This document shows, piece after piece, positions 25,522 to 35,815 of a stretch of 64,000 bases of DNA. The notes under the pieces were generated by a model. That model ran no database searches. It worked only from the letters and a program-made list of their open reading frames with translations, and was not told where the DNA came from. The translations under genes were made by a program, and so were the position numbers. Origin of the DNA: Azospirillum lipoferum 4B (GTDB lineage: Bacteria > Pseudomonadota > Alphaproteobacteria > Azospirillales > Azospirillaceae). Numbering within the stretch: position 1 is the stretch's first letter; every line of letters starts with the position of its first letter. The stretch is taken from positions 651,501 to 715,500 of the forward strand of contig NC_016585.1 in the NCBI RefSeq assembly GCF_000283655.1, written 5' to 3'.

Positions 25522-25946
25522 CACACGTCTCCCAGATAGCTGACGATCATCACGCCCGACAGGTTGGGTGCGCTCGTCTTTTCGAAGGTGATCAGACCCT
25601 GGCTGTAGCTGAGGAAACCGACCACCGCCATGACGGCCAGGAGTCCGGCGAGCGGGGCAGGGCGGAAGGGCGGTCGCGACAGGAACCACGGCACGAATTC
25701 GGGAACGACCCGCTGGGCCAGGCAATCGGCGATGCGGGCATAGACCTGCGCCTCCCGCTTGGACGAGACCAGCGGAGCCGATGCGGCATCCAGCAGCGTG
25801 TCGGTGACGGCGGCATCGGCCAGCAGGTCGCGGGCCTCGGCGCTGTCGTCGAGAAGGGCCAGGGCATCCACCCGGGCTGAGCGCGGCCAGCGGTCCAGAT
25901 CGGCGCCATAGGCCGCGGCGAAGCGTTTGAACTCTTTGAGCGTCAT
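25521..25946 (-). CDS. Probable anti-sigma factor (single-span membrane protein)
   Basis: 141 residues. Cytoplasmic N-terminal part (about 1-90) begins TLKEFKRFAAAYGADLDRWP, a pattern shared by short membrane proteins found beside ECF sigma genes; one membrane span (LAGLLAVMAVVGFLSY) around 98-115 and a short periplasmic tail. No zinc-binding HxxxCxxC motif, so it is not a ZAS-type anti-sigma. Role inferred from its ATGA overlap with the sigma gene and the TGATG overlap with the sensor-like gene. Confidence 0.65.
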   Translation of the reverse strand: MTLKEFKRFAAAYGADLDRWPRSARVDALALLDDSAEARDLLADAAVTDTLLDAASAPLVSSKREAQVYARIADCLAQRVVPEFVPWFLSRPPFRPAPLAGLLAVMAVVGFLSYSQGLITFEKTSAPNLSGVMIVSYLGDV

Positions 25947-26518
25947 GACCGTGCACCGTCCTTCTGACGGATCAGGGGTTGAAGCCGGGCCCGCACCACG
26001 CGGCGCGCCCGGACCAGCAGACTTTCCATGGCCGAAACCGACACCTGCAATATTTCCGAAGCCTCAGCGCACGTCATCTCCTCATGGTAGCAGAGACTGA
26101 GCGCCGCCCGCTGGCGTTCGGGCAGCGCCGCGATGGCGGCATCCACCGCCGCACCGATCCGGATGCCGTCGATCACCGTTTCGGCGCTCCAGGCCGGATC
26201 GGCGATCTCGCCGGCATCGTCGAGCGGGGCGAAGCTGCGCCGCCGTTTATAGTCGATGGCACGGTTCACCACGATCCTGTACAGCCAGGTCGTGAAGCGG
26301 GTTCCGTCGCCGCGCCAGCGGTCGGCATTGGCCCAGATCTGCAGGAAGGCGTCCTGCGCGACCTCTTCGGCGTCGGCGGCGTTCCCGACCACCCGTTGGG
26401 CCAAGGCGATGCTGCGGCGCAGATGTCGGCGCGTGAGCGTTCCAAATGCCTTCCGGTCGCCGGCCGCGGCGCTCGCCATCAGCGCCTCGTCGGTCACCGT
26501 TTCCTCGGTAGGCTCCAC
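25943..26518 (-). CDS. ECF-family RNA polymerase sigma factor
   Basis: 191 residues from GTG 26518, with GGAAG upstream. Sigma region 2 (RVVGNAADAEEVAQDAFLQIWANADRW, TRFTTWLYRIVVNRAIDYKRRR) and region 4 (LPERQRAALSLCYHEEMTCAEASEILQVSVSAMESLLVRARRVVR) are intact. It directs transcription of an envelope or metal stress regulon, held inactive by the coupled membrane protein. The likely autoregulated promoter lies in 26519-26780, but no convincing ECF -35/-10 pair could be fixed by eye. Confidence 0.92.
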   Translation of the reverse strand: MEPTEETVTDEALMASAAAGDRKAFGTLTRRHLRRSIALAQRVVGNAADAEEVAQDAFLQIWANADRWRGDGTRFTTWLYRIVVNRAIDYKRRRSFAPLDDAGEIADPAWSAETVIDGIRIGAAVDAAIAALPERQRAALSLCYHEEMTCAEASEILQVSVSAMESLLVRARRVVRARLQPLIRQKDGARS

Positions 26519-27594: not shown

Positions 27595-28716
27595 TCAATA
27601 ATCCCAGCGGTCGAAGGCGAAGGCCCACTGCCGGCGCACCGCGCGGCGGGCCTGGTCCTCCAGCTCGTGCCGGGCTCGCCGGTAATCGCGCACACCGGCC
27701 AGATAGCGCTCCATCCGCGGCTGCACCGGCTCGTACGGCCCGAGGGCGAGCCCGTCATAGACGTGACGCAGCGTTTCCAGCGGATCGGCGATGAAGCGGT
27801 CATAGCGGATTTCCACCAGCCGGCCGGGTGGCAGCAGCGCCCGGTCGCGGTCGAACCGCGCCATGATCGCCGGATAAAGGTCCAGCACCAGCCCGTCCAC
27901 CGCCCGCGGATCGTAGGATTGCAGTGAGAATTCCCGCAGCAGGGTCAGCAGCATGCGGCGAGTGGAGCTGAAGACCTCATAGGGGTCGCGGTGAATGTGG
28001 AGGAAGACCGCATTGGGGCGCAGGGCCAGCAATTCCCCTATCCTTGCGGTATGGGCGGGATTCTTGATCAGCAGGCGCCGGCTGCCGGAATAGAGCTGCA
28101 GCTTGGTCAGGTAATGGTCCATCCGGCGGCGCCACAGCGCGACCGCTTCCGGACGGCAGCCTTCGAACAGCACGCCCTGGCGGAAGGCGCGGTACAGGTG
28201 CTTGGGGAAGAAGATGCCGTGGTAGTAGGACAGCGGCTGCATCAGCGCCAATGCCAACTCGTCCTCCTGCGGGGCGGTCGGGTCGATGGGCATCGGGTCG
28301 ATGATCCGGTCGGGCGGCAGCCACGCCTCAAGCCGCGAGCGCCAGAAGGAACTCAGGCCCAGGAAGCCCCAGGGCAGGCCGACCGCCAGCGGGTCGGGCG
28401 CGGCGAAGCGCTCGTCCTGGGCCAGCAGGTTCAGCAGATGGGTGGTGCCGCTGCGCCAGTGGCCGAGGATGAACAGCGGCGGCGGCGCCACCCTGCCCTG
28501 CCCCCGGCCCCGGCCGGCCAGCCGCTCCACCCGCCGCCGCTCCAGCAGGTCCAGCGGCGCGCGGATGGCCGCGGCGCCGGCTGCGGTCACCACCCGGTGC
28601 AGATGCAACGGCCCCACCCCGCCGCCCTCGATCAGCACCGTCGCCAGCGTCGCGGCGTCGGCGCCGGCCAGCGGGTGGAAGATGCGGTGGGCGCGGCGGC
28701 GCAGCCAGGGGGTCAT
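27595..28716 (-). CDS. Sulfotransferase (Sulfotransfer_3 type) in the carotenoid cluster
   Basis: 373 residues. The 5'-phosphosulfate loop FILGHWRSGTTHLLNLLA lies near residue 80 and the 3'-phosphate motif RPNAVFLHIHRDPYEVFSSTRR near 225, so PAPS binding looks intact. Bacterial members of this family sulfate lipids or small secondary metabolites. It is the last gene of the five-gene minus-strand operon, overlapping the glycosyltransferase gene by 4 bases (28713-28716). The staphyloxanthin-type pathways I know of have no such enzyme, so sulfation of a carotenoid glycoside is a prediction. Confidence 0.85.
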   Translation of the reverse strand: MTPWLRRRAHRIFHPLAGADAATLATVLIEGGGVGPLHLHRVVTAAGAAAIRAPLDLLERRRVERLAGRGRGQGRVAPPPLFILGHWRSGTTHLLNLLAQDERFAAPDPLAVGLPWGFLGLSSFWRSRLEAWLPPDRIIDPMPIDPTAPQEDELALALMQPLSYYHGIFFPKHLYRAFRQGVLFEGCRPEAVALWRRRMDHYLTKLQLYSGSRRLLIKNPAHTARIGELLALRPNAVFLHIHRDPYEVFSSTRRMLLTLLREFSLQSYDPRAVDGLVLDLYPAIMARFDRDRALLPPGRLVEIRYDRFIADPLETLRHVYDGLALGPYEPVQPRMERYLAGVRDYRRARHELEDQARRAVRRQWAFAFDRWDY

Positions 28717-29858
28717 GACGCCCCCGGCCCGGTCGGATAGGCCCGCCCGCGCCACTCCGACGGCCGGCCATGACGGGCGCGCAACAGCGCCGCCCATTGG
28801 ATCGCCAGCATGATCAGGATGCCGACCGGGTGCAGAAGCGCGCCGACGACGCTCTGGCGGAAACGGACCAGCAGCAGCAACCGGAACAGCAGTCCCGCCG
28901 CCGCCGCCAGCCCCGCCATGACGACGGCCTCGTCGGGCAGCGGGTCCAGCGCCGCCCAGCCCAGCAGAAGCCAGGGCAGGACATGGCCGCCGAACAGAAG
29001 AAACGTCCAGACCGGCAGGGCGGCCGGGGTCGCCATCCCCTCCGTCGCATTCTTGGTGAAGCCGGACCACACCTCCCGCCAGCCGCGATACATGCGGCAG
29101 CGGGCAAGGCCGGTGGCGTCGAACAGGTCGGTCCCCTGCCCCGCCCGGCGAAAAGCGCGCGGCAGCGTCACCCCGTCATGCAGCGACGCCGCGATGGCCG
29201 CATGGCCCCCGGCCTTCCGGTAGGCCTTCCGCCGCACCGCGATCAGCTGGCCGCAGGCGGCGCCGAATCGTGGATCGCCCGACCGCCGCATCCCCAGCAT
29301 CGGCAGATAGCCCAGCAGCAGCACATGGATCAGCGGGATCACCAGCGCTTCGGCCATCGTCCCGGTCTCCTGGCGCGGAAAGCCGCTGACCAGACCATGC
29401 CGGCCGGACAGCAGGGCGCCGCAGGTCAGGCGGGCGGCGTCCGGAGCAAGCCGCACGTCGGCGTCCTGGAACAGCAGCACCGGATGCCGTGCCAGCGTGG
29501 CGAGCGCCTGACAGGCATGCTGCTTGCCCGACCAGCCCGGCGGCAGCGGCGGCGCGCTTTCCAATCGGACGCGCGGGTCGCGCCCGGCGATAGCGTCGAC
29601 GATCTCCGCCGTGCGGTCGGTGGAGTGGTCGTCCAGCACAACCACCTCCACCTCGACGCCGCGGCTGGCGAGTGCGGCCTCGACCGAAGCGGCGATGGTC
29701 GCCTCCTCGTTGCGGGCGGGGATCAGGATGCTGACGGCGCTGCCGGGCGGTGGAGCGGCCTTGGGAGGGCGGTAGAGCAGCAGGTTGACGATCCCCTGCC
29801 CCAGCGGCAGCAGGGCAAGGAACAGGCTGACGGCGGCGATCCACTCGACGACGCTCAT
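28713..29858 (-). CDS. GT2 glycosyltransferase, CrtQ-like
   Basis: 381 residues. N-terminal membrane helix (1-25), GT-A domain with SILIPARNEEATIAASVEAAL, VVVLDDHSTDRTAEIVD, the metal-binding LLFQDADVRL near 150, and three or four C-terminal membrane helices (LPVWTFLLFGGHVLPWLLLGWAALD onward). This layout matches 4,4'-diaponeurosporenoate glycosyltransferase (CrtQ) of staphyloxanthin synthesis. It would attach a sugar to the carotenoid acid at the inner membrane. Overlaps its neighbours on both sides by 4 bases. Confidence 0.82.
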   Translation of the reverse strand: MSVVEWIAAVSLFLALLPLGQGIVNLLLYRPPKAAPPPGSAVSILIPARNEEATIAASVEAALASRGVEVEVVVLDDHSTDRTAEIVDAIAGRDPRVRLESAPPLPPGWSGKQHACQALATLARHPVLLFQDADVRLAPDAARLTCGALLSGRHGLVSGFPRQETGTMAEALVIPLIHVLLLGYLPMLGMRRSGDPRFGAACGQLIAVRRKAYRKAGGHAAIAASLHDGVTLPRAFRRAGQGTDLFDATGLARCRMYRGWREVWSGFTKNATEGMATPAALPVWTFLLFGGHVLPWLLLGWAALDPLPDEAVVMAGLAAAAGLLFRLLLLVRFRQSVVGALLHPVGILIMLAIQWAALLRARHGRPSEWRGRAYPTGPGAS

Positions 29859-30664
29859 GGCCGGCGCACCTCCTGCCCATCACGCGATCCTGCCCCATGG
29901 GCCGGGGAGAAGGACCGCCCGCCGGCCCAGGCCCGCGCCCTTCGCCACAGGTCATAGACGCCGCCGACCCCCGCGCTGCCGTCGATCAGCGTCAGGAAAC
30001 GGGCCGGGTCGCGGCTCTGGGCGTCGAGCGCCAATGCGTCCATCGCCGCCTCCAGCCGCCGTTCCAGCACATGGGCGATGTTCGTCACCGGCTCTCCGGC
30101 GAAGGCCCCCGCCGCCATCGGCTCGCCGAAGCGGGCGAGCGCCTCCGGCGTGCTTTCGTCCCAGAACGGGTATTCGAGCGCCAGCGGCACCAGCAGGGCC
30201 GACGGCACGCGGCGGACCAGATGGGCGATTCCCGGCCGCAGGCTGACCGGGCGGCGGCGCGGGTCGGTGAAGGTGCCCTCCGCCGTGATCCACAGCATGG
30301 AGCGCGGATCGGCCAGGATGTGTTCGACATTGCGCAGGAAGGCGACGGCTCCGGCGCGGCCGGGTTCGATGCCGAACAGGCCGATGCGGGCCATGAAACG
30401 GTAGCGGCGCAGCATCGCCGCGTCGATGGGGCCATAACCCGGCCGGTCGCGGAACCGGGTGGTTCCCATCACGATCAGCAGGGCGGGATCCCACCAGGAC
30501 GGGTGGTTCAGATAGACGATCACCGCCCGGTCGGGCGGCAGCACCGGCCAGCCCGGCCGGGCCAGCCGCACCGCGTGGAAGTCGCGCCGCATCCGCCGCG
30601 CCATGATGCCGCCGAAAAAGCGGCAGAGCGCCGGCGACCGTAACGCGACCGGATCGTCCGTCAT
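29855..30664 (-). CDS. PlsC-type acyltransferase, CrtO-like role
   Basis: 269 residues; ATG 30664 preferred to the GTG directly before it. The acyltransferase motif NHPSWWDP gives H54-x4-D59 and ITAEGTFTDPRRRP is the second (EGT) block. Probably transfers an acyl chain from acyl-CoA or acyl-ACP. In staphyloxanthin formation the last step is acylation of the glucose by CrtO; the same role is inferred here from the operon. A housekeeping phospholipid role is less likely because the gene is embedded between carotenoid genes. Confidence 0.75.
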   Translation of the reverse strand: MTDDPVALRSPALCRFFGGIMARRMRRDFHAVRLARPGWPVLPPDRAVIVYLNHPSWWDPALLIVMGTTRFRDRPGYGPIDAAMLRRYRFMARIGLFGIEPGRAGAVAFLRNVEHILADPRSMLWITAEGTFTDPRRRPVSLRPGIAHLVRRVPSALLVPLALEYPFWDESTPEALARFGEPMAAGAFAGEPVTNIAHVLERRLEAAMDALALDAQSRDPARFLTLIDGSAGVGGVYDLWRRARAWAGGRSFSPAHGAGSRDGQEVRRP

Positions 30665-30683
30665 CACACGCCTGCCCTCCGTG

Positions 30684-32237
30684 TCAGGCCACGGCGCGGG
30701 CAGGGCCGGCCTGGGCGCCGGCCTGCACGCCGCCGCGCAGGTCGCGGTCCAGGCTGTCGGCGGCGATCCAGCCCGACATCAGCACCATCGGCATGCCCGG
30801 CCCCGGATGGGCGGCCCCGCCGGCCAGATACAGCCCCTCCACATCGCGGGACCGGTTCCCCGGCTTGAAGGCGCCCATGAAGCGTCCGTGGCTCGCCAAG
30901 CCGTAGATGGCGCCGTTCAGCACATTGTAGCGGTCGTGGATGTCCTGCGGGGTCAGCACATGCTCCACCCGGATGCGATCCTCCAGGTCGGCCATGCCGG
31001 CGGTGCGTTTCAGCTTGTCGAACACCACGCGGCGGTACTCCGGCAGCATACGCTTCCAGTCATGGTGCGGACGCAGATAGGGGGTATGGACCAGCACATA
31101 CAGCGCCTCGCCCCCCGGCGGGGCGACGCCCGGCTCGGTGCGGGCAGGGGCGGCGATGTAGCAGGTCGGGTCGGGCGCCGGTTCGCCGCGGCGGTAGATC
31201 CAGTCGAATTCCTCCGCCGGGTCGCGCGAGAAGACGAAATCATGATGCAGCAGATGGTCGTAGCCACGGTCGAGCCCCAGGTAGAACACCACGCCCGAAC
31301 AGGCCGGCTCGTAGCTGCGGCGCTTGGCGAAGCGCTTGGCCGGCGCCCCTCCGACCAACTCCCGATAGGTGCGGACGGAGTCCATGTTGGACACCACGGC
31401 AGAGACGGGGATGCGCTCGCCCGCGTCGGTCTCCACCGCCACCGCGCGGCCACCCTCCACCTGCAGGCGGCGGACGCCGGTGCCGGTGCGGATTTCCACG
31501 CCCAGCCGCCGCGCCACCCGTTCCAGCGCCACCGGCACGGCACGGGTGCCGCCCATCGGATACCAGACGCCGTCATTCGTCTGCATATGCGCGATGGCGC
31601 ACAGCACCGCCGGGGAGCCGTAGGGCGACGACCCGACATACTGGGTGAAATGGTCGAGCATCTGGGCCGCCCGCGCGTCCGGCACATGGCCGCGAATGGT
31701 GCCGGCCACCGTGCTGCCCATGCGCAGGGCCAGGACATCCGACAGGGTGCCGGCGTTCAGGCTGTTGCGGAAATTCAGCGTGTCGCCGAGATCCTCCACC
31801 GACTTCCAGAAGAAGAAGCGTTCGGAGATGCCGTGCAGCCGCTCCGACAGCGCCTGGAAGCGGCGATAGCCCTCCCCCGCCCCGCGGCCGGGCGCCAGCC
31901 GGTCGAGTTCGGCCGCCATCCTGTCGATCTCCTCCGACAGGTCCAGCACCGTGCCGTCGTCGAAGAAGCAACGCCATTGCGGCTCCAGCCTGACCATCTC
32001 CAGCTCGCGGTCCAGGTCGCAGCCGGCCTCCTCCAGGATGCGGCGCAGGACGCGCGGCACCGTCAGGATGGTCGGCCCCATGTCGAAGCGGAAGCCGCCC
32101 TCCTCCAGCACGGCGGCCTTGCCGCCGACCCAGGCGTTCTTTTCCAGCAGGGTCACCTTGTGCCCGCGCGCCGCCAGCACCACCGCCGAAGCCAGCCCGC
32201 CGAGCCCGCCGCCGATCACCGCGATCCGATCCGTCAT
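30684..32237 (-). CDS. CrtI/CrtN-type carotenoid desaturase or oxidase (1)
   Basis: 517 residues. FAD-binding GxGxxG at the N-terminus (AVIGGGLGGLASAVVLAARGHKVTLLEKN), FDMGPTILTVPRVL, and the C-terminal carotenoid-desaturase block GLYLAGGAAHPGPGMPMVLMSGWIAAD. Members dehydrogenate phytoene or diapophytoene, or oxidise terminal methyls. With a second paralogue next door, one is likely the desaturase (CrtN role) and the other the terminal oxidase (CrtP/CrtNb role); sequence alone does not say which. ATGA overlap with the upstream paralogue. Confidence 0.88.
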   Translation of the reverse strand: MTDRIAVIGGGLGGLASAVVLAARGHKVTLLEKNAWVGGKAAVLEEGGFRFDMGPTILTVPRVLRRILEEAGCDLDRELEMVRLEPQWRCFFDDGTVLDLSEEIDRMAAELDRLAPGRGAGEGYRRFQALSERLHGISERFFFWKSVEDLGDTLNFRNSLNAGTLSDVLALRMGSTVAGTIRGHVPDARAAQMLDHFTQYVGSSPYGSPAVLCAIAHMQTNDGVWYPMGGTRAVPVALERVARRLGVEIRTGTGVRRLQVEGGRAVAVETDAGERIPVSAVVSNMDSVRTYRELVGGAPAKRFAKRRSYEPACSGVVFYLGLDRGYDHLLHHDFVFSRDPAEEFDWIYRRGEPAPDPTCYIAAPARTEPGVAPPGGEALYVLVHTPYLRPHHDWKRMLPEYRRVVFDKLKRTAGMADLEDRIRVEHVLTPQDIHDRYNVLNGAIYGLASHGRFMGAFKPGNRSRDVEGLYLAGGAAHPGPGMPMVLMSGWIAADSLDRDLRGGVQAGAQAGPARAVA

Positions 32238-33787
32238 GCCATCCCCCCTGCAACGGCCTGCCGCAGCATGCCGGACAATCCAGTGGTCTTCGTGCGCCAC
32301 GGCGTCGGCAGGCCCAGTTCCTGGGCCAGCAGCCGCGACGTGATGCGTGCGCCTTCGAAAATGACCGGCAGGCCGCTGCCGGGATGGGTGCCGCCGCCCA
32401 CCAGATAGACGCCGTCCAGATCCTCGAACCGGTTGCGCGGACGGCGGTGGAGCATCTGGTCCAGGCTGTGCGCCAGGTTGAAGGTGGCGCCGCGATGCAC
32501 CGCGAACTGGCTTTCCCAATCGGCCGGGGTCACCACGCGTTCCACCCGGATGCGGCGCTCGATGTCGCCCAGCCCGAAGCCGGCCAGCCGGTCGAGCACG
32601 GCGCGGCGATAGCGCGGCGCCTCCGCCTGCCAATCGATGTGTCCCCGCTGGTGGCCGACCGGCACCAGGATGTAGAGCGTGCTGCAGCCGGGCGGCGCCA
32701 GATCGGGGTCGGAGACGCAGGCGTTCTGCACGTAGATCGACGGTTCGCGCGGCAGTTCGCGGCATTCCTCGATCTCCGCTAGGTTGCGGGCGTAATCCTT
32801 CGCCAGATAGACGGTGTGATGGTCCAGCCCGTCGACCTTGCCCTCGGTGCCGAGGTACAGCATGAAGGTGGAGCAGGAGAATTTCTTGGTGGCGAGCCGC
32901 GCGTCGCTCCAGCGCCGCCGCAGGTCGTCGGGCACCAGGGTGGTCATCGCCCGCGCGAAATCGGCGTTGATGACCAGCGCGTCGGCCGGATAGTCGCCGG
33001 CCTCCGTCCGCACGCCGACCGCTCGGCGGCCCTGGAACTTGATATGGCGCACCGTTTCGTTCAGGCGGACGGTGACGCCCAGGCTTTCGGCCACGCGGCG
33101 CATCGCCGACATCACCGCATCCGTCCCGCCGCGGGGGTGGAAGATGCCGTGCTCATGCTCCAGAAAGGACAGGATGGTGAACAGGCTGGGGCAGCGGAAG
33201 GGCGACATGCCCAGATACTTGCTCTGGAACGAGAAGGCGAGGCGGATGCGCGGGTCCTGGAAGTAACGGGAGAGATCGCGGTCGACCGAGCGGTGCGGCG
33301 ACAGCTTGCCCAGAGCCTTCAGCATCGGCAGCGTCGCGAGCGCCCAGGGGCTGGAGAAGTCGGATTCCAGCACCGGGCGGAAGCGCTCCATCTTCGTCCG
33401 GTTGTCGGCCAGGAAGCGCGGCAGCCCTTCGGCAACGCCCGGGCTGAGCCTGGCGATTTCCGCCATCAGCGCCTTCATCTGGGCGTGGACCCGCAGTTCC
33501 CCGCCGCCTTCGAACACCAGCCGGTAGAGCGGGTCCATACGGATCAGGTCGACCTCGTCCGACAGCCGGCTTCCGCAGGCCTCGAAGATTTCCTCCAGAA
33601 TGCGGGGATAGAGGAAGAAGGTCGGTCCGCTGTCGAACCGGTATCCGTCCATGGAGAAGCCGGCCGACCGGCCGCCGACGCGGTCCTTCCGCTCCAGCAC
33701 CGTCACCTTGGCACCGGTGAGCGCCAGGAGCATCGCGGATGCCAATCCGCCCGGTCCTGCACCGATGATCACGACTTGTCGTTCCAT
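32234..33787 (-). CDS. CrtI/CrtN-type carotenoid desaturase or oxidase (2)
   Basis: 517 residues from ATG 33787. FAD-binding VIIGAGPGGLASAMLLALTGAKVTVLERKDRVGGR, FDSGPTFFLYPRIL, LEHEHGIFHPRGGTDAVMSAM and the C-terminal GVYLVGGGTHPGSGLPVIFEGARI. First gene of the five-gene operon; only 63 bases separate it from the divergent aldehyde dehydrogenase gene, implying a shared control region. See the neighbouring paralogue for role assignment. No crtM or hpnCDE synthase gene is in the window, so the C30 or C40 precursor must come from elsewhere. Confidence 0.88.
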   Translation of the reverse strand: MERQVVIIGAGPGGLASAMLLALTGAKVTVLERKDRVGGRSAGFSMDGYRFDSGPTFFLYPRILEEIFEACGSRLSDEVDLIRMDPLYRLVFEGGGELRVHAQMKALMAEIARLSPGVAEGLPRFLADNRTKMERFRPVLESDFSSPWALATLPMLKALGKLSPHRSVDRDLSRYFQDPRIRLAFSFQSKYLGMSPFRCPSLFTILSFLEHEHGIFHPRGGTDAVMSAMRRVAESLGVTVRLNETVRHIKFQGRRAVGVRTEAGDYPADALVINADFARAMTTLVPDDLRRRWSDARLATKKFSCSTFMLYLGTEGKVDGLDHHTVYLAKDYARNLAEIEECRELPREPSIYVQNACVSDPDLAPPGCSTLYILVPVGHQRGHIDWQAEAPRYRRAVLDRLAGFGLGDIERRIRVERVVTPADWESQFAVHRGATFNLAHSLDQMLHRRPRNRFEDLDGVYLVGGGTHPGSGLPVIFEGARITSRLLAQELGLPTPWRTKTTGLSGMLRQAVAGGMA

Positions 33788-33850
33788 CCGCTTGCCAAAC
33801 GCTCCTGCGCTGCCGACTTTTGTCGTGACGGTTACGAAGCTAAGTCGGAA

Positions 33851-35323
33851 ATGGATCACAACAACATCCCCACCTCTCTAGTCGTAACCCCTTTGTCTTA
33901 TGAGGCGATTTCACCATCGCCTGAAGTCAGGGAGCGATGGTCCTCCACCGATATTTCATCGCGACTTACGGTCATTCACGGAATTCGCCGCAGGATTGCG
34001 GCGAATGCCGAGGACCTCGTGCAGGCATTGGCGACACGTCCGGGCCGGACAGTGGCTGAGAGCGTGAGCGCCGAACTCCTGCCGCTGGCCGAGGCCTGCC
34101 GCTTCTTGGAACGCGAGGCGCCCCGGCTGCTGGCTCCCCGGCGCCTTGGGCGGCGCGGCCGGCCGGTCTGGCTGTTCGGGGTGGAGGCAGAGGTGCGGCG
34201 CGAGCCCTTCGGGACGGTCCTGGTCGTCGGGCCGTCCAACTACCCGCTGCTGCTGCCGGGGGTGCAAGCGGTGCAGGCGCTCGCCGCCGGCAATGCCGTG
34301 CTGGTCAAGCCGGCGCCGGGATGCCGCGCGCCGATGGACATTCTGGCGGGCTTGCTGGCGGAATGCGGCCTGCCCGATGGGCTGTTCCGGGTTCTGGACG
34401 AGTCTGCCGACGCGGTCGGCGATGCCATCGAGGCCGGAATCGACAAGCTGGTTCTGACCGGATCGGCCGGCACCGGCCGGGCGGTGGCGGAACGGCTCGC
34501 CCGCCATCTGGTGCCCTCGACCATGGAGCTGTCGGGCAACGATGCCGTCTTCGTTCTGCCGGGCGCCGATATGGAGAGCCTCGCCCGCGCCCTGGCTTTC
34601 GGCCTGCGGCTGAACGGCTCCGCCACCTGCATCGCGCCGCGACGGGTCTTCGTGCCGCGCGGCATGGCGGCGGGGCTGGAAAAGGCGCTGGGGCGCCATG
34701 CCGCATCCATCCCGCCGGCATCGGTTCCGGCACCGACCATGCGCCGGCTCGCCGTCCTCGCGCGGGACGCGGTGGCACAAGGCGCCCATGCGCTTTCCGG
34801 ACTGCCGGAGGAGGAGGGGGCATCGATGGCGCCGCTGATCCTGGCGAACGCAAAGCCGGACATGGCGCTGCTGCGCGAGGAGCTGTTCGCCCCCGTCCTG
34901 TCGCTGGTCCCGGTGCGCGACATGGACGAGGCGCTGGCCGGCGCGGCGCTCAGCCCCTACGCGCTGGGTGCCTCGGTCTTCGGACCGGAGACGGAAGCGC
35001 GGGCGCTGGCCCTGCGGCTGGATGCCGGAACGGTGACGATCAACGACCTGATCGTGCCCACCGCCGACCCGCGTCTGCCCTTCGGCGGCCGCCATGCCAG
35101 CGGCTGGGGCGTCACCCGCGGGGCGGAAGGATTGCTGGAGATGACGCAGGTGAAGGCCGTCTGCGTCCGCACCGGCCGGCAGCGCCCGCATTTCGACCCT
35201 CCGCGCGACGGCGACGAGGCGCTGATGCTGGCGGCGCTGCGCCTGCTCCATGGCGGACCCGGCACCCGCACCGGGGCCATACGGCGGCTGGTCCAGGCGG
35301 TGAGACGCCGCCTTAAGTCATAA
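33851..35323 (+). CDS. Aldehyde dehydrogenase, likely for a carotenoid aldehyde
   Basis: 490 residues from ATG 33851. NAD-binding VVGPSNYPLLLPGVQAVQALAAGNAVLVKPAP, the GSAGTGRAV turn, catalytic Glu in TMELSGNDAVFVLPG and catalytic Cys in LNGSATCIAPRR, then EELFAPVLSLVPV. Resembles the short-N-terminus ALDH group that includes 4,4'-diaponeurosporenal dehydrogenase (AldH/CrtNc). It would oxidise the carotenoid aldehyde made by the oxidase to the acid that the glycosyltransferase uses. Divergent from the operon with 63 bases between starts. Confidence 0.82.
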   Translation: MDHNNIPTSLVVTPLSYEAISPSPEVRERWSSTDISSRLTVIHGIRRRIAANAEDLVQALATRPGRTVAESVSAELLPLAEACRFLEREAPRLLAPRRLGRRGRPVWLFGVEAEVRREPFGTVLVVGPSNYPLLLPGVQAVQALAAGNAVLVKPAPGCRAPMDILAGLLAECGLPDGLFRVLDESADAVGDAIEAGIDKLVLTGSAGTGRAVAERLARHLVPSTMELSGNDAVFVLPGADMESLARALAFGLRLNGSATCIAPRRVFVPRGMAAGLEKALGRHAASIPPASVPAPTMRRLAVLARDAVAQGAHALSGLPEEEGASMAPLILANAKPDMALLREELFAPVLSLVPVRDMDEALAGAALSPYALGASVFGPETEARALALRLDAGTVTINDLIVPTADPRLPFGGRHASGWGVTRGAEGLLEMTQVKAVCVRTGRQRPHFDPPRDGDEALMLAALRLLHGGPGTRTGAIRRLVQAVRRRLKS

Positions 35324-35353
35324 CCAACAACAATCCGATGGACCGCCCTGCCG

Positions 35354-35815
35354 ATGCTTGCCCTGATCCTCGCCTTTCTGATCGGCGCCGTCGCCGGTTC
35401 GCGCACCCTGATCGCCCCGGCGGCGGTCAGCTGGGCCGCCTATGCCGGCTGGCTGGACCTGTCCGGCAGCTGGCTGTTCTTCCTGGGGCACCCGGTTTCG
35501 CCCTGGGTCTTCACCGCGATGGCGGTGGTTGAGCTGATCGTCGACACGCTGCCCACCACACCCAGCCGCAAGCTGCCCTTCCCCTTCGCCAGCCGCATCG
35601 CCGGCGGGGCCATAGCGGGTTCCGCCATCGGTGCCGATGCGGGATTCTGGATCGGCGGACTGGTCGCCGGCGGCATCGGAGCGGTTGCCGGGACGCTTGT
35701 CGGCTATACGGCACGGATGCGCATGGCCGCCGCCTTCGGCCGCGACCGCCCGGCCGCCCTGCTGGAGGATGCCGTCGCGCTGGCCGCCGCCGTCCTGATC
35801 GTGGCGGCGGCCTGA
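35354..35815 (+). CDS. DUF4126-type small membrane protein
   Basis: 153 residues, four membrane helices with small residues. Pattern LILAFLIGAVAGSRTLIAPAAVSWAAYAG, HPVSPWVFTAMAVVELIVDTLPTTPSRK, and glycine-rich SRIAGGAIAGSAIGA fits the DUF4126 family of unknown function. It starts 30 bases after the aldehyde dehydrogenase gene and is probably co-transcribed; DUF4126 proteins are mostly of unknown role, so a link to carotenoid handling is speculative. Confidence 0.7.
   Translation: MLALILAFLIGAVAGSRTLIAPAAVSWAAYAGWLDLSGSWLFFLGHPVSPWVFTAMAVVELIVDTLPTTPSRKLPFPFASRIAGGAIAGSAIGADAGFWIGGLVAGGIGAVAGTLVGYTARMRMAAAFGRDRPAALLEDAVALAAAVLIVAAA

Follow-up and report, generated by a model that had tools for sequence, protein, structure and literature searches.

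Why should a cluster of carotenoid genes end in a sulfotransferase? The question is raised by a 64,000-nucleotide stretch of DNA from Azospirillum lipoferum 4B (contig NC_016585.1, positions 651,501 to 715,500; here called the window), in which genes for two CrtI-family oxidoreductases, a PlsC-type acyltransferase, a family 2 glycosyltransferase (GT2) and a sulfotransferase form a minus-strand chain, divergent from an aldehyde dehydrogenase (ALDH) gene (Table 1). The conserved sulfotransferase gene suggests that a C30 pigment may receive a sulfate group as its finishing step. The operon probably makes a C30 carotenoid from squalene, and a sulfotransferase dependent on 3'-phosphoadenosine 5'-phosphosulfate (PAPS) would then sulfate this pigment to give an anionic carotenoid glycolipid. 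Orthology, gene order, fold, cofactor motifs, selective constraint and co-occurrence were computed here; the substrate, the position of the sulfate and the order of steps are what we infer.

All six genes, in the same order and with the sulfotransferase last, were found at eight loci of relatives (L031, L032, L034-L038 and L040), and the public-record annotation of A. ramasamyi shows the same six in the same order. Thus, the cluster is not due to chance, and chance or mis-called genes were rejected as an explanation. An earlier note on this DNA had counted the sulfotransferase as part of the operon and proposed gene order in related genomes as a check; both are borne out, and Palleronia sp. 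LCG004 (Rhodobacterales) also keeps the sulfotransferase directly after GT2. On a Palleronia plasmid, HpnE-HpnD-HpnC (scores just under their cut-offs) are divergent from DUF2141, crtI, crtI, PlsC, GT2 and sulfotransferase, followed by ALDH on the opposite strand. The order in Geminicoccus harenae is sulfotransferase, crt, crt, PlsC, GT2, HpnC/HpnD (one 620-aa frame), HpnE (below cut-off) and IspH, and no ALDH match was found at that locus. Neighbouring genes in some relatives' loci were picked by simple choice of open reading frames, family scans being limited to those named here with a family.

In the window, the minus-strand chain (27595-33787) has 4-base overlaps at 28713-28716, 29855-29858 and 32234-32237 and a single gap of 19 bases (30665-30683), provided that PlsC begins at its ATG. 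Gene calls and family scores agree with the earlier note on gene families, coordinates, overlaps, gap and ALDH divergence. Its span to 35815 does cover the six named genes, but also takes in a DUF4126 gene that it did not name.

Based on model score, cofactor motifs and fold, the last gene of the chain is assigned to the PAPS-dependent sulfotransferase family (PF13469). The protein has the sulfotransferase fold, and carries what we take to be the 5'-phosphosulfate-binding loop and the 3'-phosphate-binding motif of such enzymes. It is 97% identical to its counterpart in Azospirillum sp. B21, and 85-86% to those in A. oryzae and A. melinis. PAPS is likely to be available in Azospirillum, judging from gene content; apsK scored above cut-off in 10 of 10 genomes searched.

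Table 1. Features of the carotenoid-sulfotransferase locus, in window coordinates.
Feature	Position	Strand	Details
Sulfotransferase (PF13469; subfamily named SULT-C here)	27595..28716	-	373 aa; PF13469 112.7 bits, cut-off 27
5'-phosphosulfate-binding loop (presumed), residues 82-94 FILGHWRSGTTHL	28435..28473	-	F82, G85, W87, R88, G90, T91, T92, H93, L94 invariant in 24 homologues
3'-phosphate-binding motif (presumed), residues 240-251 HIHRDPYEVFSS	27964..27999	-	H240, R243, P245, S251 invariant in 24 homologues
GT2 glycosyltransferase (CrtQ-type role)	28713..29858	-	PF00535 64.7 bits, cut-off 23.3; 85.6% identity to Sp7 gene over 348 aa
PlsC-type acyltransferase (CrtO-type role)	29855..30664	-	PF01553 28.8 bits, cut-off 23; 84.8% identity to Sp7 gene over 257 aa
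CrtI-family oxidoreductase adjoining PlsC	30684..32237	-	TIGR02734 crtI_fam 408.5 bits, cut-off 238.1; 91.7% identity to Sp7
CrtI-family oxidoreductase, first gene of the operon	32234..33787	-	TIGR02734 crtI_fam 536.9 bits, cut-off 238.1; 89.0% identity to Sp7
Divergent intergenic region	33788..33850	.	63 bases; aligned in 17 Azospirillum sequences
Aldehyde dehydrogenase (ALDH; aldH role)	33851..35323	+	PF00171 Aldedh 272.1 bits, cut-off 23; 74.9% identity to Sp7
DUF4126 protein, adjoining ALDH here and in Sp7 (locus L196)	35354..35815	+	PF13548 27.5 bits, at cut-off

The pigment can be approached through A. brasilense Sp7, in which, according to PMC13274349, deletion of hpnCDE or of crtNPOQ abolishes pigment, and crtNPOQ deletion causes squalene to accumulate. 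The Sp7 crtNPOQ-aldH cluster, located on plasmid p3, contains all five pathway genes, ordered as in the window, with a divergent ALDH gene and an adjoining DUF4126 gene, at 75-92% identity (CrtI-type 89 and 92%, PlsC 85%, GT2 86%, ALDH 75%). It differs in that DUF2141 follows GT2 where the window has the sulfotransferase; the homologue of the latter in Sp7 (43%) is on another replicon, and in the matching genome G019 lies ~4 kb from a hopene cyclase gene.

None of seven proteins scanned in 27595-35815 matched the SQS_PSY synthase family. In the nearest genome examined (G001), the genes for HpnC (251.1 bits), HpnD (307.7 bits) and HpnE (361 bits) are side by side, all above cut-off and away from the crt cluster, and none of three SQS_PSY genes reaches a CrtB cut-off. 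Because the Sp7 orthologues are deletion-tested, G001 has hpnCDE and no CrtB passes there, the window cluster is classed by homology as a squalene-route C30 carotenoid cluster, nearer to the Methylobacterium type than to staphyloxanthin. The C30 backbone proposed in the earlier note thus agrees with the deletion-tested genes of A. brasilense. As it had also supposed, no synthase lies in the cluster and the precursor would come from elsewhere; of the two sources it allowed, squalene is the one encoded in G001, and phytoene (the C40 route) is unlikely. The third synthase-like gene of G001 (L163:7016-7948) is divergent beside hpnC, its HpnD match being just 120 bits, below cut-off.

The CrtI-family enzyme encoded first in the operon is likely to be a C30 desaturase. 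That adjoining PlsC is likely to be a C30 end-group oxidase, by analogy with Methylobacterium extorquens, where the oxidase META1p3665 neighbours META1p3664 by number. Genes for the tailoring enzymes ALDH, GT2 and acyltransferase are all present. By analogy, our best guess at the end product is an acylated glucosyl ester of diapolycopenedioic acid; among characterised products the nearest is that of Methylobacterium, not staphyloxanthin. As described in PMC10448405, an oxidase, a lysophospholipid-type acyltransferase and a glycosyltransferase of M. extorquens AM1, the last two deletion-tested, yield 4-[2-O-11Z-octadecenoyl-glucopyranosyl]-4,4'-diapolycopenedioic acid. Here too there are differences, since its main text names no sulfotransferase (0 matches for 'sulf') and two candidate ALDH genes were tested without effect. 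A relative in the Methylobacteriaceae, Microvirga, has crt, PlsC and GT2 genes matching those of the window at 45-71% identity.

The staphyloxanthin cluster of Staphylococcus aureus, crtOPQMN, includes the diapophytoene synthase CrtM. The window cluster shares its desaturase, oxidase, aldehyde dehydrogenase, glycosyltransferase and acyltransferase steps, but is without CrtM, has relatives that use HpnCDE squalene, encodes a PlsC-type acyltransferase and has the sulfotransferase in addition. The earlier note's comparison with staphyloxanthin therefore stands for the tailoring steps, but not for CrtM, which has no counterpart, nor for the closest end product, which is of Methylobacterium type (PMC10448405).

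In the proposed pathway, HpnCDE, encoded elsewhere, would supply squalene, which the two CrtI-type enzymes would desaturate and oxidise at its end(s) to an aldehyde. ALDH would convert the aldehyde to an acid, GT2 would form a glucosyl ester and PlsC would acylate the sugar. As the sulfotransferase ends an operon of glycosyl- and acyltransfer genes, the simplest view is that it finishes the same lipid; a sulfate ester is thus predicted on the sugar moiety of this C30 product, the acylated carotenoid glucosyl ester, most likely at a free hydroxyl.

Homologues of the sulfotransferase occur in two settings. A 47-row tree contains a SULT-C group (n=17; 14 crt-linked and 3 solitary; support 100/100) and a sister group (n=27; 97/95) of A. 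brasilense-type genes and genes from other members of the class, named SULT-H. Each of the 9 SULT-H loci scanned has a gene for HpnA or HpnE no more than 5 kb away: HpnA was the best NCBIfam family for a neighbour within ~2 kb in eight (L058, L061, L063, L126, L127, L130, L131 and L133), in all cases below the curated cut-off, and HpnE, above its cut-off, is near the gene in L125. L131 also holds HpnN, HpnM, HpnB, HpnC, HpnD and HpnE, three of them above cut-off. Squalene-hopene cyclase (SHC) was found in every one of the 19 Azospirillum genomes that carry SULT-H, as well as in each of the 8 SULT-H genomes tested elsewhere in the class. A sulfated hopanoid is a possible product of this subfamily. 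The window's gene is of the other kind: its neighbours are crt genes, and SHC is absent from its nearest kin (G001, G014 and G428). Simple relocation of a hopanoid-locus gene into the operon was rejected, the window and A. brasilense-type sulfotransferases being 43-44% identical as against 89-92% for the crt proteins; furthermore, G426 bears both SULT-C and SULT-H, each at its own locus.

The distribution of SULT-C follows that of the pigment genes. Among 45 Azospirillum genomes, a carotenoid gene (a P0004 match above 900 bits) is present in 32, SULT-C in 16, every one carotenoid-positive, and SULT-H in 19; no carotenoid-positive genome is without both. The 13 carotenoid-negative genomes comprise two with SULT-H (G018, G023), ten scored as having no sulfotransferase, including G035 with a 37-bit partial match, and one (G025) in which remnants of PlsC, GT2 and sulfotransferase still lie together. 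In 13 of the 16 SULT-C genomes, one contig carries SULT-C and crt a few kb from each other, and in G425 they are on different contigs; G028 and G029 have SULT-C unlinked to crt, yet are carotenoid-positive. In the 25 genomes negative for SHC, SULT-C occurs in 14/14 with the carotenoid gene (broken in two, G001 and G027), and intact in 0/11 without it (one remnant); Fisher's test gives p 2e-7, a value that ignores kinship and counts the broken copies as present. Such a pattern would be expected of an enzyme that depends on the carotenoid, with a carotenoid that can do without the enzyme.

Several results weigh against a pigment-specific role. With three neighbouring genes from 37 genomes used to build the tree, a tree-based test had only 6 independent contrasts on supported branches, of which 4.7 on average went the same way and 0 the opposite way (median p 0.0625 by sign test); scoring broken copies as absent lowered the same-way contrasts to 3.7 (p 0.125). 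In the lipoferum clade, the shared loss may reflect no more than the deletion of a single operon; wherever the genes are linked, one such event takes out both. Two carotenoid-positive genomes have a broken SULT-C gene: that of G001 is split into two overlapping frames, and that of G027 has no match over its middle part. Five genomes of the wider family (G435, G437, G438, G449 and G450), and G051 outside it, have the carotenoid gene without a full-length homologue of this sulfotransferase (E 0.001). A linked sulfotransferase is also absent from the carotenoid clusters of Limimaricola, Gluconobacter and Microvirga, as it is from that of Sp7. In a class sample, 10 of 385 genomes had a match above 240 bits to the sulfotransferase, only that of G001 lying beside carotenoid genes; no close crt match was seen in the stretches around the other nine. 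Finally, the Palleronia and Geminicoccus proteins are only 38% and 40% identical to that of the window and are not established as one clade with SULT-C: in an approximately unbiased test on 26 rows chosen by the analyst, in which long branches meet, a single clade for all crt-linked sulfotransferases was neither shown nor rejected (p 0.075).

The alternative that survives best, though we regard it as unlikely, is that the sulfotransferase acts on a different membrane lipid (e.g., another glycolipid or a polyol lipid) controlled together with the pigment, so that its seat in the operon reflects co-expression only. Homologues in hopanoid loci, SULT-C genes apart from crt in G028, G029 and Arenibaculum, and a second copy in G384 with no crt match in the surrounding 20 kb are in line with this. 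However, SULT-C is intact in none of the 13 carotenoid-negative Azospirillum genomes, full C30 clusters with a linked sulfotransferase reappear in two further families, and the genomes with unlinked SULT-C (G028, G029 and G421, the last being Arenibaculum) are all carotenoid-positive. Less probable still is a passenger gene of little function, retained through operon linkage. It would account for the two broken copies next to crt genes that stay open, but the dN/dS of the sulfotransferase (0.09-0.34) resembles that of GT2 (0.13-0.27) and is below that of PlsC in 7/8 comparisons, though mostly above those of the two crt genes (0.05-0.18), and the core cofactor residues are invariant in 24/24 aligned homologues. 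A hopanoid enzyme, as the SULT-H sister clade with its hpn neighbours and constant SHC might suggest, is highly improbable and largely refuted for the nearest kin: as far as the genomes examined tell, most of the SULT-C clade cannot act on hopanoids, because 14 of 16 SULT-C genomes, nearest kin included, are without SHC, the exceptions being G029 and G426, which has a hopanoid-type gene of its own.

Sulfation of the pigment thus remains our preferred reading. More tentatively, and with rather more doubt than confidence, one alphaproteobacterial sulfotransferase lineage may serve squalene-derived lipids, one branch sulfating hopanoids at hpn loci and other branches having entered C30 carotenoid operons to sulfate the pigment. 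Such a lineage would predict both sulfated hopanoids and sulfated C30 carotenoid glycolipids, no report of either of which was found in the partial literature covered (most subscription papers lie outside it).

If the preferred reading is correct, the gene is a candidate for carotenoid sulfation, and nitrogen fixers associated with plants are predicted to make an anionic, amphiphilic pigment. This is directly testable, since nature offers pairs that differ in the gene: A. ramasamyi has it and in A. agricola its middle is unmatched, and Palleronia has it and Limimaricola does not. A second lead is the sulfotransferase family found at hopanoid loci. The mycobacterial sulfotransferases STF1 (2zq5) and STF9 (2z6v), for which we know of no carotenoid context, are only 17-20% identical to that of the window. 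A nearer parallel in product is offered by Erythrobacter, also an alphaproteobacterium, whose carotenoid sulfates carry the group on C40 ring hydroxyls; the 2019 paper identifies no gene and calls those for carotenoid sulfation unexplored (PMC6627997), and nothing later on such genes was found in the partial literature covered. The novelty claimed in the earlier note for a sulfated carotenoid is accordingly limited: C40 sulfates are known. The partial literature covered yielded no paper that describes a C30 carotenoid bearing sulfate, or that places a sulfotransferase in a gene cluster for carotenoids or hopanoids.

As regards regulation, a sigma-70-family factor gene (regions 2 and 4; 25943-26518, minus strand) lies across mazG from the cluster, and in A. 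ramasamyi a sigma factor and ChrR are found ~4 kb beyond the ALDH gene. Within the window there is just one sigma match, partial and at 30% (26186-26458), and no ChrR match was found; therefore, no linkage to a regulator is claimed. The unlinked SULT-C of A. oleiclasticum (L042:6687-7825) has a sigma factor/ChrR-like pair ~2 kb away, on the far side of an RlmN gene; the two members are 51% and 34% identical to those near the A. ramasamyi cluster. The divergent region of the window was only aligned, and no promoter element was recognised in it.

Variation was also seen in related clusters and genomes. In the C30 cluster of Microvirga ossetica, a methyltransferase gene (L193:10651-11733) separates one crtI gene from the other, a possible tailoring variant. 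Matches to hpnC and hpnD are kept in ten Azospirillum genomes without SHC or a close C30 carotenoid gene match (G003, G004, G005, G011, G025, G030, G032, G033, G035 and G037; loci L200, L201, L202, L208, L222, L227, L229, L230, L232 and L234); remote CrtI-like matches (84-98 bits) are seen in three of them, G030, G032 and G037. DUF2141 occurs in C30 carotenoid clusters (L196:14085-14549, L172:6630-7016 and L194:13967-14326) and near hopanoid-locus genes (L058:3394-3753, L061:3006-3350, L063:3788-4192 and L139:16449-16784); thus, two small families are common to the two kinds of squalene-lipid locus. Finally, one large gene (71-79% identity or more, family not scanned; L166:12528-14852, L128:13271-15610 and L170:12791-15151) flanks the crt cluster of Arenibaculum and, in two g27 genomes, the second copy of the sulfotransferase gene, which hints at an old shared neighbourhood.

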